Positions 6,871 to 32,440 of a stretch of DNA of 32,607 nucleotides are shown piece by piece. The translations under genes were made by a program, and so were the position numbers. The DNA lies in assembly GCA_900314565.1 (NCBI GenBank), contig OMVU01000021.1, positions 1 through 32,607 on the forward strand, written 5' to 3'. The notes under the pieces are model-generated. The model saw only the letters and a program-made list of their open reading frames with translations. It was not told the DNA's origin and ran no database searches. Source of the stretch: an uncultured Eubacteriales bacterium (GTDB taxonomy: Bacteria; Bacillota; Clostridia; Lachnospirales; Lachnospiraceae). Positions within the stretch are counted from its first letter, which is position 1. Each line of letters begins with the position of its first letter.

Positions 6871-7903
6871 TCAGGCAGCGTACCCGGAAGGTTCACCTTC
6901 AGAGACTGTCTCCCAGGCGCTGCTTTCCGACACATCTGTCTGCTCCTCAGAACAGTCTGAGCCTGCATCTTCAGCGGGCTCGTCCCGGACCGCTGTCTCT
7001 GCAGCCGGCGAGACAGTTTCCGCTGCAGGCACACTGTTGATCTCCGCTGCGGCATCATGTTCCGATGCAGCTTCCTGTCCCGTCGCAGCTGCCGGTTCCG
7101 CTGCAGCTGCCGTTTCCGGCACAGCTTTTGCTTCCGCTGCAGCTCCCTGTTCCGGTGCAGCTTCCTGCTTCAGTAAAGTATCCTGTTCCGGCAAACGTTC
7201 TCAAAATTGTTGGCGTAAAACTCTACTTTGTATCTGTTATCGGCACCGCTTTCCATGTTAAATGTTGTTCCAAGTGTGCCTGGCGAAGAATAACATATAC
7301 GAAGTCCGACTTCCTTTCCGAGTTCCCTGTCTCCGGCTGCCTGAAAAGCAGGAATCCTGTCCTTGATCAGGTTTACCGCATGAGGCTGAATAACATTTAC
7401 TATGAGGTCCAGAAACTCTTCCAGGTCATCCTGGCTGATATAAAGACCTGCTCTGTCATCACAGGCTTTTTTCAATTCTTCCGGCAATGATGCCAATCTA
7501 TCCACACGCACTGCAGAATATGCATTTTGTCTCGGAGTCCGGATCGTATTCCTGTTCCAGTCAGAACTTTTCAGCTCCTCAATGCCCAGATAATTGTTCA
7601 TCATAGTATTAATGTTTCTGCTGGGGCTGGTCAGATAACTCATCTCTTTAAAACCGAATGCGTCTATATAAGCGTACCAGTCTATTTCATCAAGATCACT
7701 GGCCCCGTTCGGAAAGAGGATTCCGAAATCAGGATTTTTCGTATCCCTGTAATAGGAATCCGCGAACAGTTCGTACTTGGTTGCGTCTTAGATCTTTCAT
7801 CCGTCGGAACGATCACAGGTGCATCCAGGGCCTGGACGGGCATTGCGGATACCAGAATCAGGATCATGCTGAGTAAGAACGCGATCCCTTTTCTAAGTGT
7901 CAT
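6871..7903 (-). pseudogene. Secreted protein of unknown family, interrupted by two frameshifts
   Basis: Three minus-strand frames join into one protein of about 344 residues. Frame one (from 7903) gives a clear signal peptide, MTLRKGIAFLLSMILILVSA, with cleavage near MPVQA. Around 7787 the reading must shift to give KYELFADSYYRDTKNPDFG, then SYLTSPSRNINTMMNNYLG and on to VEFYANNFENV. Near 7193-7195 a second shift at a three-base T run leads into the tail LPEQDTLLKQEAAPEQ and a low-complexity Ala/Glu/Pro region built on an 18-bp repeat. Each shift is repaired by adding one base. It may be a recent pseudogene or carry sequence errors. AAGGAGG precedes the start well. I do not recognise the central domain. 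Confidence 0.65.
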
Positions 7904-12063: not shown

Positions 12064-12285
12064 ATGTATTTTGATTCAATTGCAAAGATCGTTGCGGAGC
12101 GCACAGGCTGCGATATTTCAGCAGTAAGACCGGAGAGCAGGTTCTCTGAGCTCGGCATCGACTCTCTCGACACGGTAGAGCTTCTTATGAGTCTGGAGGA
12201 CGAGATCGGAATCGAGATCGATCTGGATCAGAAAGTGGAGACCATCGCCGATCTGGATCAGTTCATCCAAAGCAAAAAGGGTTGA
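12064..12285 (+). CDS. acpP: Acyl carrier protein
   Basis: This 73-residue acidic protein carries the growing acyl chain on a phosphopantetheine arm. The attachment serine is Ser34 in the motif ELGIDSLDTVEL, and helix II continues with LLMSLEDEIGIEID as in all type II ACPs. The length is typical. The start at 12064 follows GGAGG by eight bases; the longer open frame upstream has no ribosome binding site and no homology. It is the first visible gene of the operon. fabK follows at once, its start lying six bases past the ACP stop. Confidence 0.95.
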   Translation: MYFDSIAKIVAERTGCDISAVRPESRFSELGIDSLDTVELLMSLEDEIGIEIDLDQKVETIADLDQFIQSKKG

Positions 12286-12290
12286 TGCAT

Positions 12291-13235
12291 ATGATCAAAT
12301 CAGCAATCTGTGAAATGCTGGGAATCAGGTACCCCGTATTCCAGGGCGGTATGGCCTGGGTCGCTGACGGCCGGCTGGCCGCTGCGGTTTCGGAGGGCGG
12401 AGGTCTCGGCATCATCGGGGCCGGAAACGCTCCCGGTGATTACGTCAGACAGCAGATCCGGATCGCCCGGGGTATCACCGATAAACCGATCGGCGTAAAT
12501 ATTATGCTGCTGAGTCCGTTCGCGGAGGAAGTCGCGAAAATCGTGATCGAAGAAAATGTCGAAGTCGTGACCACCGGCGCAGGCAATCCTTCCAAATATA
12601 TCAAAGAATGGCTTGCCGCGGGGATCAGGGTGATCCCGGTCGTCGCATCGGTCGCAATGGCGCGTTTGATGACCCGTCTCGGAGCTTCCGCTCTGATTGC
12701 GGAAGGCGGAGAAAGCGGCGGGCACGTGGGCGAGCTCACAACAATGGTCCTCGTTCCGCAGGTCTGCGACGCGACCACGCTGCCGGTCATAGCGGCAGGC
12801 GGCATCGCGGACGGAAGAGGTGTTGCGGCTGCATTTATGCTGGGCGCTCAGGGCGTCCAGATGGGGACCCGTTTCCTCAGCGCCCGGGAATGCAGTATCC
12901 ATCCTGTTTATAAGGAAAAGATCCTGAAGGCCGGCGATCTCTGCACAATGGTCACCGGAAAACGTCTGGGTCATCCGGTCCGAAGTCTCAGGACGCAGTT
13001 CGCAAGGGACTACTCGAGAGCTGAATACGGAGGTATGCCGGATGACGAGCTGGAAAAGATGGGCGTGGGAGCACTGCGTCTTGCCGTACAGGAAGGCGAC
13101 ATCGAAAAGGGCTGTTTTCTTTCCGGGCAGATCGCTGCCATGGTCAGGAAGGAACAGCCTGCAGCGGAAATAGTGAAGGAAATTATGGAGGAGGCGGAGC
13201 CTGTCCTCCTCGGAGCATCACAATGGGTAAAATAG
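12291..13235 (+). CDS. fabK: Enoyl-ACP reductase II (FMN-dependent)
   Basis: This 314-residue flavoprotein carries out the last step of each elongation round, reducing trans-2-enoyl-ACP with NAD(P)H. FabK hallmarks are the N-terminal GIRYPVFQGGMAWVAD, the FMN/phosphate-binding AEGGESGGHVGE near residue 142, and the second phosphate loop AAGGIADGRGVAAAF followed by LGAQGVQMGTRFL. The start at 12291 fits the usual family beginning (MIKSAICEMLGI); ATG and TTG codons just upstream (12285, 12282) are alternatives. It overlaps fabD by 13 bases. FabK in place of FabI suggests that the organism is insensitive to FabI inhibitors unless a fabI lies elsewhere. Confidence 0.94.
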   Translation: MIKSAICEMLGIRYPVFQGGMAWVADGRLAAAVSEGGGLGIIGAGNAPGDYVRQQIRIARGITDKPIGVNIMLLSPFAEEVAKIVIEENVEVVTTGAGNPSKYIKEWLAAGIRVIPVVASVAMARLMTRLGASALIAEGGESGGHVGELTTMVLVPQVCDATTLPVIAAGGIADGRGVAAAFMLGAQGVQMGTRFLSARECSIHPVYKEKILKAGDLCTMVTGKRLGHPVRSLRTQFARDYSRAEYGGMPDDELEKMGVGALRLAVQEGDIEKGCFLSGQIAAMVRKEQPAAEIVKEIMEEAEPVLLGASQWVK

Positions 13236-14122
13236 CTTTTGTTTTTTCAGGTCAGGGCGACCAGTTCCCGGGTATGGGAAAAAATCTGTATGAAAAATAT
13301 CCGGCCGCCCGAAAGATTTATGATTTATGTGACGGGATCCGTCCCGGTACGTCTGCCCGGTGCTTTGACGGCACGGAGGAGGAACTGAAGGAGACCGGTA
13401 ATACGCAGCCCTGCCTTTTTGCAACGGAACTGGCGGCAGCGTGTGTTCTGATGGAGAAAGGGATCATCCCCGACATGACTGCAGGATTTTCTCTCGGCGA
13501 GGTCGCTGCGGCTGCGGTCAGCGGATTGTTTGACTATGAGACCGGGTTCCGTCTCGTCTGTAAGCGAGGAGAGCTGATGCAGGCCGAGGCTCGGAAATTC
13601 GACACGTCGATGGCTGCTGTCCTGCGGCTTGCGCCCGAAAAGGTCGAGGAAGTGTGCGGGAAGTATTCCGATATTTACCCTGTAAATTACAGCTGCCCCG
13701 GCCAGATCACGGTATCCGGTCTCTCCTCTCAGATGGCGGATTTTTTCGCCGACGTGAAGACGGCGGGTGGCAGGGCCATTCCGCTGAAAGTGAAGGGAGC
13801 TTTTCATTCTCCGTTCATGAATGAAGCTGCGAAGGAATTTGCCGGGGAACTGGCAAATGTGAAGATGGGCAGACAAAGCATCCCACTCTACTCCAATAAG
13901 ACGGCAGAGCCTTATGAGGAGAATGCAGTAAGCTTGCTATCCTCCCAGATCTGCAGTCCCGTGCAGTGGGAAAAGACCATCCGAAATATGATTGAGGACG
14001 GCGCGGACACGTTTATCGAGATCGGTCCCGGCAGAACACTCACCAATATGATCAGGAAGATCAGCACGGAAGTGCGGGCGCTCACCTGTTTCGAATATCT
14101 TGAGGAGGCGGAAGGATGCTGA
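13223..14122 (+). CDS. fabD: Malonyl-CoA:ACP transacylase
   Basis: This 299-residue enzyme moves malonyl from CoA to ACP. The oxyanion-hole motif FSGQGDQFPGMG is at the N terminus, the nucleophilic Ser is in GFSLGEVAA near residue 90, the conserved Arg region is LVCKRGELMQ, and the catalytic His is in KGAFHSPFM near residue 197. The C-terminal IEIGPGRTLTNMI block is also typical. GGAG lies seven bases before the ATG, inside the end of fabK. It overlaps fabG by seven bases, so fabK, fabD and fabG are probably translationally coupled. Confidence 0.95.
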   Translation: MGKIAFVFSGQGDQFPGMGKNLYEKYPAARKIYDLCDGIRPGTSARCFDGTEEELKETGNTQPCLFATELAAACVLMEKGIIPDMTAGFSLGEVAAAAVSGLFDYETGFRLVCKRGELMQAEARKFDTSMAAVLRLAPEKVEEVCGKYSDIYPVNYSCPGQITVSGLSSQMADFFADVKTAGGRAIPLKVKGAFHSPFMNEAAKEFAGELANVKMGRQSIPLYSNKTAEPYEENAVSLLSSQICSPVQWEKTIRNMIEDGADTFIEIGPGRTLTNMIRKISTEVRALTCFEYLEEAEGC

Positions 14123-14844
14123 AAGGAAAGACAGCGGTCGTGACCGGAGGTTCCCGCGGGATCGGTGCAGCGATCGTCTGTAAGCTGGCATCGATGGGTG
14201 CGAATGCAGCGGTCATTTATGCGGGAAATGCAGCCGCTGCGGAGAATGTCTGTGAGAAATGCAGACAGGAATACGGCGTGCAGGCAAAGGCTTATCAATG
14301 CAACGTTGCTGATTTTTCTGCGACGAAAGAAACCGTTGCAAAGATCAAGGCAGATTTCGGCACGGCTCAGATCCTCGTCAACAATGCAGGCATCACCCGG
14401 GACGGGCTGCTTGCGATGATGAAGGAGGAAGATTTTGATGCGGTCCTGAGTACCAACCTCAAAGGCGCCTTCAATATGATCCGCCACATGACGGGGCTCT
14501 TCCTTCGGGCACGGGAGGGCTGCATCATCAATATCGCCTCGGTGTCCGGCATGATGGGCAACGCAGGACAATGCAACTATTCTGCCTCGAAAGCCGGCCT
14601 GATCGGACTGACGAAGTCTGCGGCGAAGGAGCTTGCATCCAAAGGCATCCGCTGCAACGCGATCGCACCCGGGTTTATCGCAACGGATATGACGGGAAAT
14701 CAGACGGACAATCCCCTGCTCCGCATGATTCCCCTCGGCAGGATGGGCGAACCGGAGGATGTGGCGGACGCGGCAGCCTATCTGGCATCTGCAGAATATG
14801 TGACCGGCGAAGTCCTCCGCGTTGACGGCGGAATCGCCATGTAA
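14116..14844 (+). CDS. fabG: 3-oxoacyl-ACP reductase
   Basis: This 242-residue short-chain dehydrogenase reduces 3-oxoacyl-ACP with NADPH. The Rossmann loop GGSRGIGAA is near residue 11, followed by NNAGITRDG, the catalytic Ser in NIASVSGMMG, and YSASKAG with the catalytic Tyr and Lys. The C terminus RVDGGIAM is the normal FabG ending. GAGGAGG precedes the ATG. The end of this gene is unusual: its last codons, stop codon and following purine-rich stretch are repeated in three further degenerate copies before fabF (14821-14948). Confidence 0.95.
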   Translation: MLKGKTAVVTGGSRGIGAAIVCKLASMGANAAVIYAGNAAAAENVCEKCRQEYGVQAKAYQCNVADFSATKETVAKIKADFGTAQILVNNAGITRDGLLAMMKEEDFDAVLSTNLKGAFNMIRHMTGLFLRAREGCIINIASVSGMMGNAGQCNYSASKAGLIGLTKSAAKELASKGIRCNAIAPGFIATDMTGNQTDNPLLRMIPLGRMGEPEDVADAAAYLASAEYVTGEVLRVDGGIAM

Positions 14845-14948
14845 GGAAAGAAATTGATGGCGGAATCGCTGTGTAATGAAAAGGTCGACGGTGGAATCAC
14901 CATGTAAAGAATAAAGTCGGCGGTGATATCGCCACGTAAGGAGAAAAT
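14821..14948 (+). repeat. Four tandem copies of the fabG 3' end
   Basis: The genuine end of fabG (VDGGIAM, stop) at 14821-14844 is followed by copies beginning at 14853, 14884 and 14916, at periods of 32, 31 and 32 bases. The copies would read IDGGIAV-stop, VDGGITM-stop and VGGDIAT-stop. All but one of the base changes are transitions. The last copy supplies the TAAGGAG ribosome binding site of fabF. Confidence 0.85.
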
Positions 14949-16190
14949 ATGATGAGTCAGAACAGACGAGTTGTCGTCACCGGAATCGGTGCGGTCACTC
15001 CGTTGGGAAACAATACTGCCGATACCTGGCAGAATATGAAGAGCGGCAGGAACGGCATTGCTCCCATCACACATTTCAATACGGATAATTTCAAAGCAAA
15101 GCTGGGTGCTGAGGTCAAAGGCTTCGACCCGAAAGAGTACCTGGAGGTAAATGAAGTACTGCGCACCGACCGCTTTGCCCAGTTCGCCGTTGCAGCATCA
15201 CAGCAGGCGGTGGAGGAAAGCGGCGTGAAGGGAACTGTCGAACCGGAACGCTTTGCCGTACTCTTCGGCACGGGGATCGGCGGGATCGGTACATTTGAGA
15301 CAGAACACACCAAGCTGATGGAGAAAGGCCCGCGCCGGGTCTCCCCGCTGTTCGTCCCTATGATGATCGGGAATATGGCATCCGGCCTGATCGCGATCCG
15401 CCACGACTGCCGCGGACCGGCTATGCCTGCCGTCACCGCCTGCGCTTCCGGTTCCAATGCCATCGGAGAAGCGATGCGCCTTATCCGCCACGGGTATGCC
15501 GACGCCGTGACCACCGGCGGTGCGGAAGCTTCCATCGTTCCGATCGCTGTCGCAGGTTTTTCCAATATGAAGGCGCTTTCCGTTTCCGAAGATCCGGACG
15601 CAGCCTCACTGCCGTTCGATAAGCGCAGAGGAGGATTCGTGATCGGTGAGGGCTCTGTCGCGCTTGTCCTTGAGGAATACGAACACGCAAAGGCCCGCGG
15701 GGCAAAGATCTACGGCGAGGTGTGCGGCTACGGTTCCACCTGCGACGCTTACCACATCACCGCTCCGCATCCCGACGGGCGCGGAGGCGCGCAGGCGATG
15801 GCGAATGCCATGAAGGAAGCCGGCTATACGGAGAACGATACCGTGTATATCAACGCGCATGGAACAGGTACGCCGATGAACGACGCAGTCGAGACGATTG
15901 CGATCAGGAAAGCGCTTGGAGAGGAAAATGCAGGGAAAGCGTTCGTCAGCTCCACGAAGTCCATGACCGGACATATGCTTGGCGCTGCAGGCGCGGTCGA
16001 AGCGATGGCCTGCCTCTTCGCTCTGAATGAGGGAATCATTCCTCCAACAATCAACCTGCTGGAGCAGGATGAACAGTGTGACCTGAACTGTGTTCCGAAT
16101 ACAGCCGTGAAGGCGGAGATCACACTGGCGCTCTCCAACTCTCTCGGATTTGGCGGTCACAATGCCTGCCTCGCATTCAGAAAGGTATGA
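14949..16190 (+). CDS. fabF: 3-oxoacyl-ACP synthase II
   Basis: This 413-residue condensing enzyme elongates acyl-ACP with malonyl-ACP. The thiolase-fold triad is complete: the nucleophile Cys in VTACASGSNAIGEA near residue 164, His in YINAHGTGTPMND near residue 305, and His in KSMTGHMLGAAGAVEA near residue 340. GFGGHNA near the C terminus is also standard. The ATG at 14949 (or the next one, at 14952) follows TAAGGAG, part of the fourth tail repeat. accB begins four bases after its stop. Because no fabH is in the cluster, FabF may be the only condensing enzyme encoded here. Confidence 0.96.
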   Translation: MMSQNRRVVVTGIGAVTPLGNNTADTWQNMKSGRNGIAPITHFNTDNFKAKLGAEVKGFDPKEYLEVNEVLRTDRFAQFAVAASQQAVEESGVKGTVEPERFAVLFGTGIGGIGTFETEHTKLMEKGPRRVSPLFVPMMIGNMASGLIAIRHDCRGPAMPAVTACASGSNAIGEAMRLIRHGYADAVTTGGAEASIVPIAVAGFSNMKALSVSEDPDAASLPFDKRRGGFVIGEGSVALVLEEYEHAKARGAKIYGEVCGYGSTCDAYHITAPHPDGRGGAQAMANAMKEAGYTENDTVYINAHGTGTPMNDAVETIAIRKALGEENAGKAFVSSTKSMTGHMLGAAGAVEAMACLFALNEGIIPPTINLLEQDEQCDLNCVPNTAVKAEITLALSNSLGFGGHNACLAFRKV

Positions 16191-16194
16191 TTCG

Positions 16195-16626
16195 ATGAAA
16201 GAAACAGAGATTCGTAAATATGCCGGGCTGATGAAGGAACTCGGGCTGACCGGACTGGAAATTACGGTGGAGAACCGCAAAATCCGTCTGGAACGTTCCG
16301 TCCCGGCATCGATCACAGAAACCGTATATTCTGTTCCCGAATCTGACGGCAGCGCGCCGGCTGCATCGGCTCCAATGGCTCCAATGGATTATATCAGTGT
16401 GAAGTCCCCCATCGTCGGCGTGTTTTATGCGGCTCCGGCAGAAAATGCCGACCCCTATGTCTCCATCGGGGACAATGTGGCAAAGGGGCAGACTCTCTGC
16501 GTCGTGGAGGCCATGAAGCTGATGAACGAGATCGCTGCCGAGGAAGACGGTGTTATTTCGGAGATCTGTGTTGCCAACGGGCAGGTCGTTGAGTACGGGA
16601 CAGAGCTGTTCCGGATCCGCAGATAA
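16195..16626 (+). CDS. accB: Biotin carboxyl carrier protein of acetyl-CoA carboxylase
   Basis: This 143-residue protein holds the biotin that shuttles carboxyl groups between AccC and AccD/AccA. The biotin lysine is in the motif VVEAMKLMNE, within a C-terminal biotinyl domain starting at about residue 68 (VKSPIVGVFY). An N-terminal helical part (KYAGLMKELGLTGLEI) and an Ala/Pro-rich linker precede it, as in other AccB proteins. The start at 16195 has AAAGG nine bases upstream; the longer frame overlaps fabF. The C-terminal coding end is echoed twice downstream before fabZ. Confidence 0.94.
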   Translation: MKETEIRKYAGLMKELGLTGLEITVENRKIRLERSVPASITETVYSVPESDGSAPAASAPMAPMDYISVKSPIVGVFYAAPAENADPYVSIGDNVAKGQTLCVVEAMKLMNEIAAEEDGVISEICVANGQVVEYGTELFRIRR

Positions 16627-16709
16627 GAATTGAGCGAAGAACTGAGCTTTTCCGGATCCGAACGTAAGGAATTGTGTACGGAACAGAGCCGTTTTTGATC
16701 CGGAGGAAA
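16591..16709 (+). repeat. Three tandem copies of the accB 3' end
   Basis: The accB end (EYGTELFRIRR, stop) at 16591-16626 is followed by copies at 16632 (ERRTELFRIRT, stop) and 16674 (VYGTEPFLIRRK). The periods are 41 and 42 bases. The third copy ends in CGGAGGAAAT and runs into the spacer before the fabZ ribosome binding site. Confidence 0.8.
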
Positions 16710-16735
16710 TATAGTGTGTATCAGGAGGCAAAAAG

Positions 16736-17152
16736 TTGAACAGAGAAGAAATCATGACGATACTGCCTCACAGAGACCACATGCTGCTCCTTGACGAAGT
16801 GGAAAACAGGGAAGGCACTGCCATCGGACAATATGCTGTTCGCGGTGACGAGTTCTTCCTGAAGGGACATTTTCCCGAGAATCCCATCGTTCCGGGCGTG
16901 ATCCTCTGTGAGATCCTGGCGCAGACCGCCTGCGTACTTCTGCAGGATGTTTTGAGCGAGGGAAAACTGCCTGTCTACACCGGGCTGAACAATGTAAAAT
17001 TCCGCTCCCCGGTAAGGCCGGGCGATACGATCGAGACGCAGTGCCGCATCAAACGCGTGAAGCATCCGTTTTATTTTGCCGAGGGCACTGTCTCGGCGAA
17101 CGGACGGCTGTGCGCGTCGGCTGAGTTTTCTTTCGCAGTTACAGGAGCGTGA
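16736..17152 (+). CDS. fabZ: 3-hydroxyacyl-ACP dehydratase
   Basis: This 138-residue hot-dog-fold enzyme dehydrates 3-hydroxyacyl-ACP to the trans-2-enoyl form. LPHRDHMLLLDEV at the N terminus, the catalytic His in GHFPENPIVPGV and the catalytic acid in LCEILAQTACV are all present. Translation appears to begin at a TTG (16736) that follows AGGAGG with a seven-base spacer and gives the usual MNREEIMTILPHR start. The length is typical. It sits between accB and accC, the common Firmicute order. The gap behind it contains a faint copy of its own tail. Confidence 0.94.
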   Translation: MNREEIMTILPHRDHMLLLDEVENREGTAIGQYAVRGDEFFLKGHFPENPIVPGVILCEILAQTACVLLQDVLSEGKLPVYTGLNNVKFRSPVRPGDTIETQCRIKRVKHPFYFAEGTVSANGRLCASAEFSFAVTGA

Positions 17153-17187
17153 ACACACTCATGGCTGAAGCATCCTGTACTGGTTGA
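17120..17187 (+). repeat. Possible faint echo of the fabZ 3' end
   Basis: The fabZ end reads AEFSFAVTGA-stop (17120-17152). The gap before accC contains AEASCTG-stop in 17164-17187. The match is short and gapped, so this is suggestive only, but it fits the stronger cases at fabG, accB and accA. Confidence 0.35.
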
Positions 17188-17204
17188 TGAGAAAGGTAGT
17201 GACT

Positions 17205-18512
17205 ATGTTTTCAAAAATACTGATCGCCAACCGCGGCGAGATCGCTGTCCGAATCATTCGGGCCTGCAAGGAAATGGGCGTGGCCACGGTCGCTGTGTAT
17301 TCCGAGGCGGATCAGAACGCCCTGCACGTCGCGCTCGCCGATCAAAGCTACTGCATCGGGGGGCCCGAAGCATCGGAAAGCTATCTGAATGAAGATCAGA
17401 TCATCAGCACCGCTCTTCTGGCAGGTGCGCAGGCGATCCATCCCGGCTACGGATTTCTTTCCGAGAATGCGCATTTTGCCCGTGCCTGCAGAAAGAACGG
17501 GCTGGTGTTCATCGGCCCCGATCCCGACAGCATGGAGCGCCTCAGCGACAAGGCAAAATTGAAAGAGCTGATCCGTGGAACAGGTCTTTCGGTCATCCCG
17601 GGAACAAAAGCCGTGGCTTCTGCTGCGGAGGCAGAACGGGCAGCCGAAAGGATCGGGTATCCGGTCATGCTCAAGGCCTGTGCAGGCGGGGGCGGTCGCG
17701 GGATCCGCCTGATCCGTTCCGAAGAGGAGCTTGCGGATGCATATCATCAGGCGTCAGGCGAAGCCCTGAACGCTTTCGGTGACGGGAGCCTGTATCTGGA
17801 AAAATATATCTTCCCTGCAAGGCACGTAGAATTACAGGTCCTCGCCGACGAGTACGGGAATGCCGTATGTCTCGGAGACCGCGACTGTTCTCTGCAGAGG
17901 CGAAATCAAAAACTGCTGGAGGAATCGCCCTCTCCCGCTGTCGGCGGCGGACAGCGCGAAAAGATCATGGCGCTTGCGGCGGAGGCCGTAAAAAAGATCG
18001 GATATGTCGGTGCAGGTACCCTTGAATTTCTGCTCGATCGTGAGGGCCGCTTCTGGTTCATGGAAATGAACGTACGTCTCCAGGTCGAACACTGCGTAAC
18101 GGAAATGCTGACAGGTGTTGATCTCGTGAAATGGCAGATCCGCATCGCTGCCGGCATTCCGCTGAATTTCACGCAGAAAGACGTCCGGATGAATGGGTCG
18201 GCCATCGAATGCCGGATCAATGCGGCAAGCTGCGGTACTTTGAAAATGCTCCACGTTCCGGGCGGTCCGTCCGTGCGCTTCGATACCTGCCTGGTCGCCG
18301 GGACGGTCGTTTCTCCGTACTACGATTCGCTGCTCGGAAAGTTGATCGTTTACGCGAAGACGAGGGAGGAGACTCTCCGCAAAATGCGTGCCGCGCTTTG
18401 CGAACTGGTGATTGACGGCATCTCGACGAACATTGAGGAACAGCTGCGGATCGTCGGGGATGAGCGCTTTACGTCCGGCGATTATGATCTGACCTTTATG
18501 GGAAACAGGTGA
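17205..18512 (+). CDS. accC: Acetyl-CoA carboxylase, biotin carboxylase subunit
   Basis: This 435-residue ATP-grasp enzyme carboxylates the biotin on AccB with ATP and bicarbonate. FSKILIANRGEIAVRII opens the protein. The glycine-rich ATP loop is KACAGGGGRGIRLI near residue 160, and the active-site block reads EMNVRLQVEHCVTE near residue 290. The catalytic Glu, Asn, Arg and Glu are kept, although most family members read MNTRIQVEHPVTE. The following loop (INAASCGTLKMLHVPGG) is several residues shorter than the usual one, which has PSPG. The start at 17205 follows AAAGG; an ATG seven codons upstream (17184) is less likely. Confidence 0.94.
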   Translation: MFSKILIANRGEIAVRIIRACKEMGVATVAVYSEADQNALHVALADQSYCIGGPEASESYLNEDQIISTALLAGAQAIHPGYGFLSENAHFARACRKNGLVFIGPDPDSMERLSDKAKLKELIRGTGLSVIPGTKAVASAAEAERAAERIGYPVMLKACAGGGGRGIRLIRSEEELADAYHQASGEALNAFGDGSLYLEKYIFPARHVELQVLADEYGNAVCLGDRDCSLQRRNQKLLEESPSPAVGGGQREKIMALAAEAVKKIGYVGAGTLEFLLDREGRFWFMEMNVRLQVEHCVTEMLTGVDLVKWQIRIAAGIPLNFTQKDVRMNGSAIECRINAASCGTLKMLHVPGGPSVRFDTCLVAGTVVSPYYDSLLGKLIVYAKTREETLRKMRAALCELVIDGISTNIEEQLRIVGDERFTSGDYDLTFMGNR

Positions 18513-18516
18513 TGAA

Positions 18517-19377
18517 ATGGCTTTGTTGAATTTTATGAAACCCAAAAATCAGCTGGAGGAAGGCGGGCGTACTTCGGCTCCCGTTCAGCGTGACTCCGGT
18601 GAGCCTGAGAAAAAATGCCCGAACTGTCACAGGGATATTCCGCTGAGCCGTCTCTGGGCGAATGATCTTGTCTGCCCCTGCGGATACCATTTTCGAATGA
18701 AAGCGCGCCAGCGCATACAGATGATAACCGACAGGGGAAGCTTTCACGAACTCTTTTCCGATATGCGGGCGGAAAATCCGCTGAATTTTCCCGGCTATAA
18801 CGACAAGATCGAGACCGTCCGCGCGGCGAGCTGCGAAAAAGAAGCCGTGATCTGCGGGTCCGCTCTGATCGGCAGGCAGAAGTGCTGTCTGTTTGTTATG
18901 GAGCCTTACTTCATGATGGGCAGCATGGGCAGCGCTGTCGGCGAAAAAATCACTTCCCTGTTTGAATATGCCGTGCAGCACCGTCTGCCGGTCATCGGCT
19001 TTACGGTCTCCGGCGGTGCCCGCATGCAGGAAGGGCTGCTGTCGCTCTTGCAGATGGCAAAAACAAGCGCTGCGGTCAGGCGGCACAGTGATGCGGGACT
19101 CCTGTATATCGCCGTTCTTACCGATCCGACGACCGGCGGCGTGACGGCAAGCTTCGCGATGGAGGCGGATATTATTCTTGCCGAACCCGGCGCGACCGTC
19201 GGTTTTGCGGGGGCGAGGGTGATCGAACAGACGACGAAGAAAGCCCTTCCCGACGGATTCCAGAAATCTGAATTTGTCCTTGAGCATGGGTTCATCGACA
19301 GCATTCTTCCCCGCTTCGACCAGAAGAAATGTTTGGCGGAGCTCCTGAAAATGCACTGTGGGAGGGCGATGATATGA
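18517..19377 (+). CDS. accD: Acetyl-CoA carboxylase, carboxyltransferase beta subunit
   Basis: This 286-residue subunit forms the carboxyltransferase with AccA and transfers the carboxyl group from biotin to acetyl-CoA, making malonyl-CoA. A four-cysteine zinc ribbon is visible near residue 33 (CPNCHRDI, then VCPCGYHF). The crotonase-like core follows: MGSMGSAVGEKI, GFTVSGGARMQEG and LTDPTTGGVTASFA, all strongly conserved in AccD. The length is typical. The ATG is four bases past the accC stop, with GGTGATG as a modest ribosome binding site. accA begins 30 bases after its stop, in a duplicated leader. Confidence 0.95.
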   Translation: MALLNFMKPKNQLEEGGRTSAPVQRDSGEPEKKCPNCHRDIPLSRLWANDLVCPCGYHFRMKARQRIQMITDRGSFHELFSDMRAENPLNFPGYNDKIETVRAASCEKEAVICGSALIGRQKCCLFVMEPYFMMGSMGSAVGEKITSLFEYAVQHRLPVIGFTVSGGARMQEGLLSLLQMAKTSAAVRRHSDAGLLYIAVLTDPTTGGVTASFAMEADIILAEPGATVGFAGARVIEQTTKKALPDGFQKSEFVLEHGFIDSILPRFDQKKCLAELLKMHCGRAMI

Positions 19378-19420
19378 ATAATGCTGCGGCTGCAGGAAGG
19401 TGTTGGTATGAGTAATTCTG
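19356..19420 (+). repeat. Duplicated accA start region
   Basis: Segments 19356-19386 and 19390-19420 match at about 23 of 31 positions with a 34-base period. Each contains a Shine-Dalgarno-like stretch and an ATG. The first ATG (19376) opens a 13-codon frame whose stop overlaps the real accA start at 19408. Confidence 0.6.
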
Positions 19421-20199
19421 CTTATGAACGAGTAAAACTAGCCCGGGACAGTAAACGGCCGACAGGACTTGATTATATAAATTGTATTTTTAACAGATTT
19501 ATTGAGCTGCACGGTGACCGCCGCTATGCGGATGATCCGGCTGTAATTGGCGGTATTGCAAGGCTGAACGATACACCTGTCACGGTGATCGCAATCGAGA
19601 AAGGGCATACCGCAAAAGAGCGCACGTACCGAAATTTCGGTATGCCGCAGCCGGAAGGCTACCGCAAAGCCCTGCGTCTGATGAAGCAGGCAGAGAAATT
19701 CGGCAGACCGGTCATCTGCTTTGTGGATACAGCCGGCGCGTACTGCGGAGTTGGTGCTGAGGAAAGAGGCCAGGGACAGGCGATCGCTGAAAATCTGCTC
19801 GAGATGTCGACCCTCTGCGTTCCGATCATCTCCATTTTGATCGGGGAAGGCGGGAGCGGCGGCGCGCTTGCCCTTGCTGTCGCAGACAGGGTCTGGATGC
19901 TGCAGAATGCCGTGTATTCCGTCATTTCACCGGAAGGCTGTGCGAGCATTCTCTGGAAGGATTCCGGCAAAGCGGAAACCGCTGCCGCAAGTCTGAAGCT
20001 GACCGCAGAGGATGCCAAAAGTCTCGGCGTGGTCGAACGCATTCTTTCTGAAGATGACATCGGAAAAAAAGAATTTTATGACCGCATCCGCACTCTTCTT
20101 GCGGAAGAACTGAAAGAACTGGCAAGGGACACGGAGCTTACGCAGAAGCGTTATGACAGATTCCGCAGGGCAGGAACCGCTGCGGTCATTAAGGAATAA
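19408..20199 (+). CDS. accA: Acetyl-CoA carboxylase, carboxyltransferase alpha subunit
   Basis: This 263-residue subunit pairs with AccD. Typical blocks are the N-terminal [56 protein letters not shown] (core: [11 protein letters not shown]), [18 protein letters not shown], and [17 protein letters not shown], which forms the oxyanion hole for the CoA thioester. The protein is shorter than the roughly 320-residue E. coli form because it lacks the N-terminal helical extension, as in other Clostridia. The start at 19408 has AGGAAGGTG upstream. The 3' end is echoed in the long repeat-filled gap that follows. Confidence 0.95.
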
Positions 20200-20424
20200 G
20201 CAGGTCCGGATCAGTACAGGCCCTTATCGAATAAACGGTTTAAGATCAGTGCAGACGTAAAGGAGTCAGCAGGTCAGAGTGACCGATGCATTCTTGTAAG
20301 GACTGATAAAGCCTTTATGAAACAAGCTTGTAAGGACCGGTACAGCCTTTATGAAACAAGCTTGTAAGGACCGGTACAGCCTTTATGAAACAAGCTTGTA
20401 AGGACCGGTACAGCCTTTATGGAG
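20164..20424 (+). repeat. Tandem array of accA tail copies and 34-bp units
   Basis: The accA end ([11 protein letters not shown], stop) at 20164-20199 is followed by a frame at 20199-20234 reading [11 protein letters not shown], stop. More diverged copies follow. Four 34-bp units then start at 20293, 20327, 20361 and 20395; the second and third are identical and the last is partial. Each unit contains GTAAGGAC and, 12 bases later, an ATG. The last unit merges into GGAGTAAATATG, the start of the acyl-CoA synthetase gene. Confidence 0.8.
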
Positions 20425-20429
20425 TAAAT

Positions 20430-22106
20430 ATGAGTATCTACGAACAGTATTGTAAAGAAATTGTCGATGAGAACGGCAGACTGAATAAAATCACACTGGA
20501 CTATCCCGACAACTTTAACTTCGGTTACGATGTTGTCGATCAGATCGCAGATGAAACCCCGGAGAAACGTGCGCTTGTATGGTGCAACGTTGAAGGCGAA
20601 GAACATGTTTTTTCATTTGCGGATATAAAAAGATACAGCAATCAGATGGCAAATGTATTCCGCAGCGCCGGGATCGGCCGCGGCGACCGCGTTCTGCTGA
20701 TCCTGAAAAGGCACTATGAATACTGGTTCGCGGCCGTTGCCCTGCACAAGCTGGGTGCCGTGATGATCCCGGCAACGCATATGCTGACGGTCAGGGATTT
20801 TGTGTACCGCATAAAATCTTCCGGCGTAAAAGCCATTGTGTGCACGACGCAGAAAAAGGTCCCCGAGAAGATCACCGCAGCACTGAAAGCGGCCGGCATG
20901 ACAGCCCGACTGTGGTGTGTTCAGAAAGATATCGCCGGATTCGAAAATCTGACCAAAGCCATGCAGGGAGCCTCCGAAGAATTCGAGCGTGTCCAGACCC
21001 TGGCGACGGATCCGATGATGCTGTATTTCACATCCGGTACTACGGGCGAGCCCAAAGGTGTCATTCACGATCACAGCTATCCGCTCGCGCATATCGTCAC
21101 GGCGAAGTACTGGCAGCAGGCGGAGGAGGGCGGTCTTCATTTTACGGTTGCGGAGACAGGCTGGGCGAAAGCATCCTGGGGAAAGATCTACGGACAGTGG
21201 CTCGTCGGCAGTGCGGTCATGGTCTATGATTTCGATAACTTTGAGCCGAAGCAGCTGACCGCTGTGATCAATCGTTACGGAGTGACTTCCTTCTGCGCTC
21301 CCCCTACGGTCTACCGCTATCTCGTCCGCAAGGGGATTCCGGATATGCCTTCGCTGAGACATGCATCGACAGCGGGGGAAATGCTGGCACCCGAAGTATT
21401 CCGCAGGTTCACGGAGCGTACCGGTCTCCCGCTCTGCGAGGGGTACGGACAGACAGAGACGACGCTTTTGATGGCTAATTTCAGGGGATATGACGCTGTC
21501 GAGGGTTCCATGGGAACACCCTCTCCCTTTTATAACATCGAGCTGCGCGGAAAGAACGGAAAGCCTGTCGGCGTCGGCGAGGTGGGCGAAGTCGTCATCA
21601 TTCCCGAAAAAGAAGGCAGACAGTCAGGCGTATTTACCGCGTATCTGGACAACGAGGAACAGTACCGCTATGTATGGCGTGACGGCGTCTATCACACGGG
21701 AGATGCCGCATATATGGATGAGAACGGCCGATACTGGTTCCACGGCCGTTTCGACGATATTATCAAAACAGGCGGTTTCCGTGTCGGCCCGTATGAGGTG
21801 GAAAATGTGCTGATGGAGCACCCTGCCGTCGTGGAATGCAGTGTAATCGGCGTGCCGGATCCGCTCCGGGGCCAGGCGATCAAGGCAGTCGTTGTTCCCG
21901 GCGCGGGATATGATTCCTCCAGGGAACTTGAGGCGGAGATCAAAAACTTCTGCAACCGGAAGCTTGCGGAGTATAAGTGGATCCGCCACGTAGAATTCGT
22001 AAAGGAAATGCCGAAGACGATCAGCGGTAAAATTCAAAAGACTGTACTTCGCAGTCAGAAGCAGGTGGGCTATGCGAATAATTGCAGACGCTATGGGCGG
22101 CGATAA
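20430..22106 (+). CDS. AMP-forming acyl-CoA synthetase (ANL superfamily)
   Basis: This 558-residue enzyme activates a carboxylic acid with ATP to an acyl-adenylate and then an acyl thioester. The P-loop YFTSGTTGEPKGVIH, the adenine-binding YGQTETT, the YHTGDAAY hinge-region motif, and the C-terminal catalytic Lys in PKTISGKIQK are all present. The overall layout is closest to medium-chain acyl-CoA synthetases (ACSM/MACS). The start at 20430 follows GGAG; an in-frame ATG 15 codons upstream lies in the repeat array. Its last 35 bases overlap plsX in another frame. Placed within a fatty acid operon it may recycle exogenous or short branched acids into primers or acyl-ACP, which is inference. Confidence 0.9.
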   Translation: MSIYEQYCKEIVDENGRLNKITLDYPDNFNFGYDVVDQIADETPEKRALVWCNVEGEEHVFSFADIKRYSNQMANVFRSAGIGRGDRVLLILKRHYEYWFAAVALHKLGAVMIPATHMLTVRDFVYRIKSSGVKAIVCTTQKKVPEKITAALKAAGMTARLWCVQKDIAGFENLTKAMQGASEEFERVQTLATDPMMLYFTSGTTGEPKGVIHDHSYPLAHIVTAKYWQQAEEGGLHFTVAETGWAKASWGKIYGQWLVGSAVMVYDFDNFEPKQLTAVINRYGVTSFCAPPTVYRYLVRKGIPDMPSLRHASTAGEMLAPEVFRRFTERTGLPLCEGYGQTETTLLMANFRGYDAVEGSMGTPSPFYNIELRGKNGKPVGVGEVGEVVIIPEKEGRQSGVFTAYLDNEEQYRYVWRDGVYHTGDAAYMDENGRYWFHGRFDDIIKTGGFRVGPYEVENVLMEHPAVVECSVIGVPDPLRGQAIKAVVVPGAGYDSSRELEAEIKNFCNRKLAEYKWIRHVEFVKEMPKTISGKIQKTVLRSQKQVGYANNCRRYGRR

Positions 22107-23310
22107 CGCTCCCCTTGAAATCGTAAAAGGAGTTCTTGGCGCAGCGTCAAAGACAGATCACAGGTATATCCTGGTCGGACGAAAAAGTGAAATTCTGCGC
22201 TGTATCGGAAATAGTGCTGAACTCAGCGGTCATATTGAAGCAATCGATCATCAAAGCGAAATAGTGAATGATCCGTCCGATCCTGTCAACGGTCAGATCA
22301 GTGCAGGCAGGAAGCAATCCAATCCTGTCAACGATCAGATCAGTGCAGGCAGGAAGCAATCCAATCCTGTCAACGATCAGATCAGTGCAGGCAGGAAGCA
22401 GATCGATCCTGTCAAGAGTCAGATTGAAACAGTCACAGACAAGCCCGGAAAGATCAGAAATCGGTCCGATATAGTCAGGAATCAAATCGAAATAGTCAAC
22501 GCCGAACAGGTCATCACAATGGAGGATGAGCCGCTCGCTGCTGTTCAAAAGAAAAAAGATTCCTCCATGGTGGTCGCTCTCAAACTGCTTGCGGCGGGTT
22601 ACGGAGACGCTCTTGTGAGCGCAGGCAATACGGGTGCGCTGTTTGCGGGCGCGACCCTTCTCGTGAAGCGGGCACCCGGGATCAGGCGGGCGGCAATCGG
22701 AACACTCCTGCCCTCCTCCAGGCCGTGCCTGCTCCTCGACGCCGGCGCCAACGTGTCGGTCACGGAAGAATATCTGGAGCAGTTCGCGCTCATCGGCGCA
22801 GAGTATATGCGGACGGTCTGCGGGATCAGGGAACCCGAAGTCGGCCTCTTAAATAACGGGACCGAGGAATGCAAAGGCACAGTGCTGCAGATCGAAGCCG
22901 GAAAAAGGCTGCGGGCAAACAAAAGCATCAACTTCATCGGAAATGTTGAAGCATCTTCCGTGATGGCAGGTGTCTGTGACGTAGTCGTCTGTGACGGTTT
23001 TACGGGAAATGTATTCCTGAAGGCAACAGAAGGTATGGGCAGGGCGATCCTGTCTTCACTGAAAGATCTTTATTCTGAAAAGCCTGAAACGAAACTGTCG
23101 TATCTTCCTGTACAGAAGAAGATACAGGAGATAAAAAAGAGATTTGATCCTTCCGAGCACGGAGGATCTCCATTTCTCGGAATCTCCCGGCCCGTGATAA
23201 AGGCGCACGGCTCGTCCGATGCAGCCGCTTTTGAAAATGCGATTTTTCAGGCAATAAAGTATGCGGAATCGCGGAAATGCTATTATAATGGGGAAACGGA
23301 GTTATCGTAA
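22072..23310 (+). CDS. plsX: Phosphate acyltransferase PlsX with a repeat insertion
   Basis: PlsX converts acyl-ACP to acyl-phosphate for PlsY, the first step of phospholipid synthesis in most Gram-positive bacteria; it binds the inner face of the membrane. MRIIADAMGGDNAPLEIVKG opens the protein and VITMEDEPLAAVQKKKDSSM, SAGNTGALFAGAT, LLDAGANV and GFTGNVFLKATEG follow, so the enzyme is recognisable throughout. It is 412 residues long against about 330 normally. The excess is about 84 residues (55-139) of 14-residue repeats inserted between LSGHIE and IEIVNAEQ. The frame is preserved. The start overlaps the synthetase gene by 35 bases and follows AGGTGGG. The effect of the insertion on activity is unknown. 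Confidence 0.92.
   Translation: MRIIADAMGGDNAPLEIVKGVLGAASKTDHRYILVGRKSEILRCIGNSAELSGHIEAIDHQSEIVNDPSDPVNGQISAGRKQSNPVNDQISAGRKQSNPVNDQISAGRKQIDPVKSQIETVTDKPGKIRNRSDIVRNQIEIVNAEQVITMEDEPLAAVQKKKDSSMVVALKLLAAGYGDALVSAGNTGALFAGATLLVKRAPGIRRAAIGTLLPSSRPCLLLDAGANVSVTEEYLEQFALIGAEYMRTVCGIREPEVGLLNNGTEECKGTVLQIEAGKRLRANKSINFIGNVEASSVMAGVCDVVVCDGFTGNVFLKATEGMGRAILSSLKDLYSEKPETKLSYLPVQKKIQEIKKRFDPSEHGGSPFLGISRPVIKAHGSSDAAAFENAIFQAIKYAESRKCYYNGETELS
22294..22419 (+). repeat. Three 42-bp tandem repeats inside plsX
   Basis: Units at 22294, 22336 and 22378 encode QISAGRKQSNPVND twice and QISAGRKQIDPVKS. The first two are nearly identical in DNA. Weaker flanking copies (SEIVND, QIETVTD, SDIVRN, QIEIVN) extend the array to about 22240-22490. 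The unit is a multiple of three bases, so the frame survives. Confidence 0.9.
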
Positions 23311-23345
23311 TTGCTCACGGCCGGATCCCCTGATAGAATACGCCT

Positions 23346-23462
23346 GCGGGAGTGTCAGGGCAGACCGATAACGATGTGACGGACTCTGTACAGGAAGTAC
23401 TCCCTTGCGGGAGTGGCAGGGGCAGACCCGCCAGCAGAAAAAGAAACTCTGTAAAAGGAGAG
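23346..23462 (+). repeat. Two-copy direct duplication of about 62 bp after plsX
   Basis: GCGGGAGTG-CAGGG-CAGACC occurs at 23346 and 23407, and ACTCTGTA-AGGA at about 23384 and 23447. The second copy provides AAAAGGAGAG, the ribosome binding site of the PAS regulator gene. Confidence 0.6.
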
Positions 23463-23465
23463 AGA

Positions 23466-31416: not shown

Positions 31417-31429
31417 CACTTATCCCTCC

Positions 31430-31590
31430 ATGCAGACTTTTGCGTCCGTTTTCCGCCGTCGCAGATCTTTGCGTCCATTTTCCTTCGTACAGATCTTTGC
31501 GTCCGTTTTCCTCCGTCGCAGATTTTTGCGTCCATTTTCCTCCGTCGCAGATCTTTGCGTCTATTTCCCTCCATGCAGACCTTTGTGGCC
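31430..31590 (-). repeat. Six 29-bp tandem repeats with a Shine-Dalgarno core in each
   Basis: On the minus strand the unit is GACGCAAAGATCTGCGA plus CGGAGGAAAATG. Copies are spaced 29, 28, 29, 29 and about 29 bases, with the conserved GCGTCC on the plus strand at 31442, 31471, 31499, 31528 and 31557. Most copies keep GGAGG or a one-base variant, several followed by ATG. The array lies between the short-chain dehydrogenase stop and the DUF1653 start. Confidence 0.9.
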
Positions 31591-31600
31591 GTTTCTGTGC

Positions 31601-32440
31601 TCATTCCCGAACCATCTCCTCACTCAGCTCAAACAGCCTCCCGGCAGTCCGCCTGCTCTTCGAACGCTTTGAGGATTTTGCGATCCGACATTTATAAAAA
31701 TATCCTCCGGAAATATGACTGACCGCCTCGTCCGTCGCAAGGTAAATGGCCGTTGCGGCTCCTTCCGCCGGCGTCAGGAAAAATGGTCTGAGCAGGCCTG
31801 TGATCGTTTTCCCGAACCCGGTCTCCCGGTCAACGCCCATATTGGTGGCGACCGCTCCCGGATGACAGCAGTTGACAGTGATTCCGCTGCCCTTCAGGCG
31901 TTCTGCCAGTTCTCTGGTGAACAGAACATTTGCGAGCTTGCTCTGGGAATAGGCCCTGACCACATTGTATCCATGGTGAAGATTAATATCATTGAAATGA
32001 ATCTCCCCGACTTTATGCGCGCCGGAAGCAACATTTACGATTCTGGAACCTGCAGGCATCCGATCAAGAAGCAGTGTGGTTAGAAGAAAATGACCAAGGT
32101 GATTGATTCCGAACTGCCTCTCTATTCCATCTTTGGTCTCCTGCCGGTCGAGGGAAATAAAGCCGGCGTTATTGACAAGAATATCGATATGGCGATACTT
32201 CGCTTTCACGCTGCGGACAAAGCTGCGGATCGAAGCAAAATCTCCCAGATCACAGATTATAAGATCCAGTTTCCGATTTTTCTCTCTCATCAGTTCGGCT
32301 AAAGCTTTCCTGCCTCGCTCTTCACTCCTGCAGAGCATAATGACAGTGGCTCCCTTATCACTGAGCGCCTCCACCGTGGCCATTCCCATGCCGGAATTTG
32401 CACCGGTCACGATGGCAATCTTGTCCTGTAAATCTGACAT
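31601..32440 (-). CDS. Short-chain dehydrogenase/reductase (retinol dehydrogenase-like)
   Basis: This 279-residue cytosolic NAD(P)-dependent oxidoreductase has the Rossmann loop TGANSGMGMA near residue 14, the CRSEERG turn that suggests NADP preference, NNAGF, the catalytic Ser region NVASGAHK and YSQSKLANVL with the catalytic Tyr and Lys. HPGAVATNMG follows as in retinol dehydrogenase/WW-domain oxidoreductase-like members. The basic C-terminal extension (KSSKRSKSRRTAGR) is odd. AGGAGAGGGC precedes the ATG, and an operator-like palindrome lies about 80 bases upstream. The substrate is unknown. It precedes the DUF1653-Smr pair on the same strand, separated by the 29-bp array. Confidence 0.88.
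   Translation of the reverse strand: MSDLQDKIAIVTGANSGMGMATVEALSDKGATVIMLCRSEERGRKALAELMREKNRKLDLIICDLGDFASIRSFVRSVKAKYRHIDILVNNAGFISLDRQETKDGIERQFGINHLGHFLLTTLLLDRMPAGSRIVNVASGAHKVGEIHFNDINLHHGYNVVRAYSQSKLANVLFTRELAERLKGSGITVNCCHPGAVATNMGVDRETGFGKTITGLLRPFFLTPAEGAATAIYLATDEAVSHISGGYFYKCRIAKSSKRSKSRRTAGRLFELSEEMVRE

Follow-up and report, generated by a model that had tools for sequence, protein, structure and literature searches.

In a stretch of 32,607 nucleotides from an uncultured Lachnospiraceae bacterium (contig OMVU01000021.1 of assembly GCA_900314565.1; the whole stretch is called the window, and its genome G000), we found that several junctions of a fatty-acid operon carry degenerate tandem copies of neighbouring sequence, and that arrays of this kind recur elsewhere in the genome and in some related genomes. 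Our preferred reading, to which we assign a probability of about 0.5, is that the input of short tandem duplications is raised in these related genomes, is filtered by selection, and is then possibly fixed by complementary decay of the copies. Tandem duplications of ~25-60 bp would arise at many places, and within genes mainly the in-frame ones would survive. A junction duplication spanning a stop codon may harm neither gene, in that the upstream gene would still end in the first copy, with the last one offering a ribosome binding site to the downstream gene. In a compact operon, coding end and binding site overlap before the duplication; afterwards the first copy's binding site could weaken by synonymous change and the last copy could drop the reading frame. 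Deletion of a unit would then damage a gene, and the spacer would be hard to shrink and might grow further. The fatty-acid operon may have entered the genus in compact form from a distant lineage and been stretched by junction duplication thereafter.

Tandem arrays in the fatty-acid operon

The arrays and their surroundings are given below, with period and copy number from Tandem Repeats Finder (TRF). The fab and acc names and acs, as well as the hisA-like and hpf-like labels used further on, are presumed identities, in part carried over from the first-pass annotation, while domain searches back plsX (PF02504) and the regulator (PAS).

14116..14844, plus strand: fabG; its last codons and stop form copy 1 of the array that follows
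14822..14952, plus strand: fabG>fabF array, TRF 32 bp x 4.1, about four degenerate copies of 31-32 bp
16589..16720, plus strand: accB>fabZ array, TRF 42 bp x 3.2, about three copies of 41-42 bp, beginning within accB
17153..17204, plus strand: fabZ>accC spacer, 3 nt long in the compact loci described below
19356..19421, plus strand: accD>accA duplication, TRF 34 bp x 1.9
20165..20277, plus strand: degenerate accA>acs array, TRF 35 bp x 3.3, 61% match, beginning in the accA end
20293..20421, plus strand: younger accA>acs array, TRF 34 bp x 3.8, 96% match
22276..22424, plus strand: in-frame array inside plsX, TRF 42 bp x 3.5, 93% match
23311..23465, plus strand: plsX>PAS spacer, holding two copies of a repeat at period 61
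31425..31594, minus strand: array of 29-bp units with an 86-bp higher order, taking up the gap that separates an adh_short gene from the next
7043..7190, minus strand: array with 18-bp units where two predicted genes overlap

When tandem self-similarity was compared with 300 dinucleotide shuffles of each junction, fabG>fabF, accB>fabZ, accD>accA and accA>acs all scored above every shuffle (p <= 0.0033). The plsX>PAS spacer did so by a small margin (13.8, the highest shuffle reaching 13.0; p <= 0.0033), and the minus-strand junction at 31417-31600, absent from the first-pass list, also exceeded all 300 (p <= 0.0033). The first-pass annotation had proposed tandem copies at the five operon junctions just named and, more faintly, after fabZ; the former stand, but the self-similarity of fabZ>accC was not above its 300 shuffles (p = 0.75). 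Its leader duplication ahead of accA and its in-frame expansion of plsX were both borne out at the periods and copy numbers listed, the former above all shuffles.

At fabG, accB and accA, the copies take in the upstream gene's final codons and stop. At fabG>fabF, TAA is present in every copy and TAAGGAG in the last one, ahead of fabF, while the accD>accA unit holds the accA binding site and start codons. The accB>fabZ junction of a compact locus (L026, see below) contains GTATCAGGAGG, which recurs directly ahead of fabZ in the window. The main PF02504 stretch of plsX covers residues 135-400 and does not include the array, which belongs to a broader 21-bp periodicity (22230-22499); the plsX frame has 435 aa in the window and 336-372 aa in five other genomes. 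The repetitive in-frame insertion, at about residues 58-138, is the portion that does not align to PlsX of other genomes. It was also noted that most units of the 31425-31594 array contain a GGAGG-like site, offering several possible binding sites ahead of the next gene.

Duplication load across the genome and its relatives

The G000 assembly (4.2 Mb) is fragmented, with 191 contigs and 3.84% contamination. From it we sampled 41 stretches including the window (631 kb in total, with 622 kb of readable letters, four of the 41 stretches being all N), and genes in sampled stretches were called with a home-made gene caller. A strong array was defined as a TRF array scoring at least 80, and gaps of 25-600 nt were considered. 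On this measure, 32 of 295 co-directional gaps of the G000 sample held a strong array compared to 1.4 in shuffles, so that in this part of the genome the arrays exceed shuffled sequence and recur on other contigs; convergent (1/42) and divergent (2/36) gaps held three. The 32 arrays have periods of 23-86. Ten of them start within the upstream gene, 11 extend as far as the downstream gene's start region, two do both, and 13 do neither. The first-pass statement that the copies usually repeat the upstream gene's last codons thus describes the operon better than it does the genome. Under strict scoring, an echo of the gene end was found in 9 of 273 co-directional gaps of G000 (control 0.02%), in 2/70 of G052, 1/73 of G049, 1/30 of G005 and 1/41 of G053, and in none of the co-directional gaps of G043, G036, G033 and G031. 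Echoing of gene ends is therefore real but a minority. Among coding arrays of G000, the period is divisible by three in 38 of 39.

An all-versus-all comparison of the 46 noncoding-associated arrays of the G000 sample confined related pairs to four pieces of a single locus (L133), which agrees with the earlier suggestion that each array has private units and that no single mobile repeat is involved. These pieces account for four of 26 arrays classed as intergenic, and that class is slightly overcounted as a result. At ~6197-6950 of L133, several related repeat blocks were called intergenic and possibly represent a missed repetitive gene. A dispersed mobile repeat at junctions, or an assembly artefact, would be in keeping with the MIRU-like position of the arrays at starts and stops and with the fragmented, partly contaminated assembly. 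We consider this highly improbable: the units are copied from the gene beside them, the G000 genome has the fabG array a single time, the copies are diverged and are present in separate assemblies of several species, and the window holds the one strong PlsX match that the genome has, which speaks for the window belonging there.

We compared five array-rich genomes (G000, G005, G052, G049 and G042) with seven others (G036, G043, G053, G011, G044, G033 and G031). On the same measure, strong arrays were found in 11/76, 6/74, 5/79 and 2/21 co-directional gaps of G005, G052, G049 and G042, and in 1/56, 1/21, 1/44, 0/27, 0/26, 1/48 and 2/65 gaps of the comparison genomes in the order given. Pooled, this amounts to 56/545 versus 6/287 (p = 5e-6), or 24/250 when G000 is left out (p = 2e-4), for a grouping that was chosen post hoc from the data and in which several samples are small; the five genus controls alone gave 3/174 (p = 1e-4). 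In a tree of RpoB, G000 and G005 are sisters, G049, G042 and G001 are grouped together nearby, and G011 and G044 sit in the same wider clade as G000 and G005. G052, which gave no RpoB match, was placed by gene identities only.

Fresh duplications were taken as those with a copy match of at least 93% and a period of at least 15. The array-rich genomes contained 22 fresh noncoding duplications in 185 kb compared to 3 in 80 kb of the other seven (3.2-fold; p = 0.03), and 17 fresh coding ones in 978 kb compared to 4 in 734 kb (3.2-fold; p = 0.02). Although the numbers are small, this equal rise in coding and noncoding sequence points to raised input over selection for spacers alone.

Positive selection for wider spacers, in which packed junctions are disfavoured in these hosts and duplication is the available route for an acquired compact operon, does not predict this equal rise, and it appears unlikely on balance. 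It would nevertheless account for several observations. Median co-directional gaps are 83-125 nt in the array-rich genomes versus 13-28 nt in G031, G033, G036, G043 and G011; the same operon junctions are expanded in G052, and at one junction the expansions of G000 and G005 derive from different units. The operon is also denser in stop-spanning arrays, with 4 of its 11 co-directional junctions compared to 12 of 450 elsewhere in the sample (p = 3e-4, a post hoc figure for a window flagged for its arrays). Against it, accC>accD is short in both G000 and G052, and the 52 nt of fabZ>accC hold no detectable copies.

The placement of arrays bears on a further alternative, a process that targets gene ends or stop codons, such as nicking tied to the termination of transcription or translation. 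Taking all G000 arrays, 17 span a stop compared to 5.9 expected (p = 3e-5), with 12/39 outside the window (p = 0.003), and G052 shows a similar excess (4 versus 1.2 expected; p = 0.02), while arrays spanning a start are not in excess (3 versus 4.8 expected in G000). However, G049 has no stop excess (3 versus 2.5), and among the fresh noncoding arrays only two of 22 span a stop and one spans a start, close to random placement, which predicts 0.13-0.19 at stops. Stop-codon targeting is thus not visible among fresh duplications, and we regard it as very unlikely. The first-pass annotation had suggested a process that repeatedly duplicates junction DNA; repeated duplication of local DNA is supported by copy numbers that differ between species, whereas the aim at junctions was not. 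The stop-spanning excess looks like retention, or like easier detection where one copy stays coding-constrained.

Two candidate sources of the duplications were rejected. Loss of mismatch repair was set aside on a full-length MutS1 frame in G000, a check that covered MutS1 among the repair genes. Ku-dependent end joining, as a source of homology-free duplications, was set aside because a search of 42 genus genomes, of which 18 are at least 90% complete, gave no Ku match.

Probable origin of the operon and possible division of signals between copies

Orthologs of the operon were located across genomes by tblastn, under the gene labels of the first-pass annotation. The operon proteins, the PAS regulator apart, are 58-90% identical to those of three loci (L026, L027 and L028; for example FabF 79-85 and AccC 85-89) that we call donor-like, together with the genomes G031, G032 and G033. 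Because this is far closer than RpoB, in which G031, G032 and G033 are 63-65% identical to G000, the operon (12282-23310 of the window) was probably acquired horizontally from a distant lineage. The distribution of its FabF type suggests transfer into the genus: among 42 genus genomes, many of them incomplete, only G000 and G052 have it (93% mutual identity), seven have a relative at 50-54%, and 33 have none.

The donor-like junctions are compact, measuring 11-13 nt at fabG>fabF, 3-4 at accB>fabZ, 3 at fabZ>accC and 2-3 at accA>acs across L026, L027 and L028, with accD and accA overlapping in L026 and L028. The corresponding window junctions measure 104, 109, 52 and 230 nt, the last with an acs start set by homology at 20430 (the open reading frame list has 20385). 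There are thus before-and-after views of one operon, compact in donor-like lineages and stretched in two related genomes, and for another array the single-copy site is known, as described below.

In the donor-like loci the upstream gene bears the binding site within or on its end: AGGAGGTAG at accB of L026, AAGGAGTAA at accA of L026 and L028, and TAAGGAG at fabG. At all three junctions, the consensus match of the first copy is shorter in the window and G052 than in L026 (AAG and AGGA at accB, AAGGA at accA, AAGGA at fabG), and the last copy has the full core at two of the three (AGGAGG and AGGAGGT at accB, AAGGAG at fabG). As G000 and G052 share ancestry, these count as three cases rather than six. 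Judged by motif length, accB shows a clear split of signals, fabG a slight one and accA a one-sided one. Such splits may lock the spacers in, as outlined at the start.

Copy number differs between the species. At fabG>fabF, G052 has 5.0 copies of 33 bp versus 4.1 of 32 in G000, at accB>fabZ 5.1 of 43 bp versus 3.2 of 42, and at accD>accA 3.3 of 31 bp (about three copies) versus 1.9 of 34, while accA>acs shows less self-similarity in G052 (p = 0.013). Between the hisA-like and hpf-like genes, G000 has three stop-spanning 40-bp copies and both G052 and G005 have a single copy, G005 with a weak 23-bp array further on. The single-copy site of G052 contains the 8-mer direct repeat GATCTCCC twice, spaced exactly 40 bp. 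At L123, a 47-bp array copying the gene end is common to G000 and G052; in G005 (protein 95% identical) there is a 60-bp array, whose unit has a AGAAGGAG site resembling that ahead of the next gene. The G001 ortholog (74%) of the L131 junction has a long gap with no array. Along contig C100, the middles of five gaps are hard to align between G005 and G000, and one weak array only was found there (in G005).

This turnover also bears on whether the arrays are functional regulatory or structured RNA, such as attenuators or reinitiation relays. Compared with 100 shuffles, fold z-scores of eight segments ranged from -0.4 to -4.3. The G052 segments at fabG>fabF (-4.3), accA (-2.4) and accB (-2.1) and the window segments at fabG (-2.2), accA (-2.1) and plsX>PAS (-1.7) are in favour, although tandem copies alone can lower the energy. 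By contrast, the window accB segment (-0.7) and that at 31601 (-0.4) fold like shuffles, no Rfam match was found within the window at the gathering cut-off, and unit sequence, length and copy number all differ between sister genomes. We therefore consider an RNA function quite unlikely.

Several observations weigh against raised duplication input followed by complementary decay. With regard to the grouping, the array-rich set is not one clean clade: the RpoB tree unites array-poor G053 with G000 and G005 (support 81/95). Moreover, G053 and G044 have long gaps (medians of 82 and 103) yet few strong arrays. With regard to input, three of the 22 fresh noncoding duplications, all 74-bp arrays, share a single G049 contig and are perhaps not independent, biased detection may explain the stop-spanning excess, and the checks of MutS1 (intact in G000) and Ku (no match in 42 genomes) revealed no cause for the raised input. 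In 15 of 16 fresh two-copy duplications of array-rich genomes, 0-3 nt extend beyond two full units; with so little extra homology, slippage between longer repeats accounts for some cases only. With regard to the split of signals, the last accA copy keeps GGAG only, no longer a match than the AAGGA of the first copy, and the first fabG copy is short by one base only. With regard to turnover, the hisA-like>hpf-like gap is 257 nt in G000, 244 in G052 and 243 in G005; gaps of such similar length mean that duplication is not the sole route to long spacers, and any array at this junction was found in only two of 20 genomes. By eye, the L123 copy number is alike in G000 and G052. Finally, a 60-bp G000 array ahead of L225:8522 is lacking in G052 and G005; at this junction 13 of 15 genomes have no array, and G038 has a weak one (with the longest open reading frame taken as the upstream gene).

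An extension of the duplication-and-decay account, which we hold tentatively and would sooner doubt than accept, is a one-way ratchet: duplication would split the overlap, complementary decay would make this irreversible, and operons would decompress stepwise, contributing to the size and low coding density of G000. Coding density is ~83% in the G000 sample (4.2 Mb genome), compared to 92% and 91% in donor-like G031 and G033 (1.9 and 2.1 Mb). Bacterial spacers are usually discussed as trimmed by selection; if the lock-in is true, spacer growth could be driven by mutation input and loss of overlap, not by benefit, and this group would be a natural system in which bacterial tandem duplication of short stretches could be measured. 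Fresh copies with joins of 0-3 nt, in genomes that gave no Ku match, also raise a concrete question on how such duplications form.

Relation to known systems and minor observations

Bacterial minisatellites, or variable number tandem repeats, likewise consist of head-to-tail units, roughly 10-100 bp long, whose copy number differs between related genomes. The present arrays differ in being concentrated in some related genomes, in that 10 of the 32 strong arrays start in a gene end, and in that the copies appear to have begun dividing coding end and binding site at one to three junctions. Duplication-degeneration-complementation similarly splits overlapping functions between copies after duplication; here the object is a junction of 30-45 bp and not a gene, of which both copies may have become necessary.

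Mycobacterial interspersed repetitive units (MIRUs) are described as apparently mobile repeats that insert at start codons (PMC12548453). They resemble the present arrays as repeats between co-directional genes that leave the neighbours' translation signals usable, and the operon arrays likewise lie between co-directional genes whose frames appear open and whose start and stop signals appear intact. Unlike MIRUs, each unit here is copied from adjacent genes, and the 46 arrays compared show no sequence family shared among many loci. Shine-Dalgarno sequences in upstream gene ends, with spacing and stop codons adapted to overlap, are the subject of a second report (PMC2784483) and correspond to the state of the donor-like loci with AAGGAGTAA and AGGAGGTAG; in the window, that overlap would have been undone by duplication. 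The TAACTGA direct repeats of Beggiatoaceae, which in one genome lie mostly just upstream of start codons (PMC4679880), are direct repeats as well, but they are described as one fixed heptamer genome-wide and not as local copies. In the titles and abstracts of the open-access literature searched, no junction duplications of the present kind were described.

Other features were recorded along the way. No tRNA was found within the window. The period-74 arrays of G049 (95% match) lie on one contig, at L202 10980-11267, L203 3-325 and L247 19723-19999. L126 (1000-1076 and 2865-2926) and L211 (18247-18310) hold exact two-copy duplications, 31-38 bp long and running 0-1 nt past two units, in a genome that gave no Ku match. 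Dense large repeats with units of 21-108 bp occupy coding sequence of G000 at L213 1359-4757 and 10516-11498.

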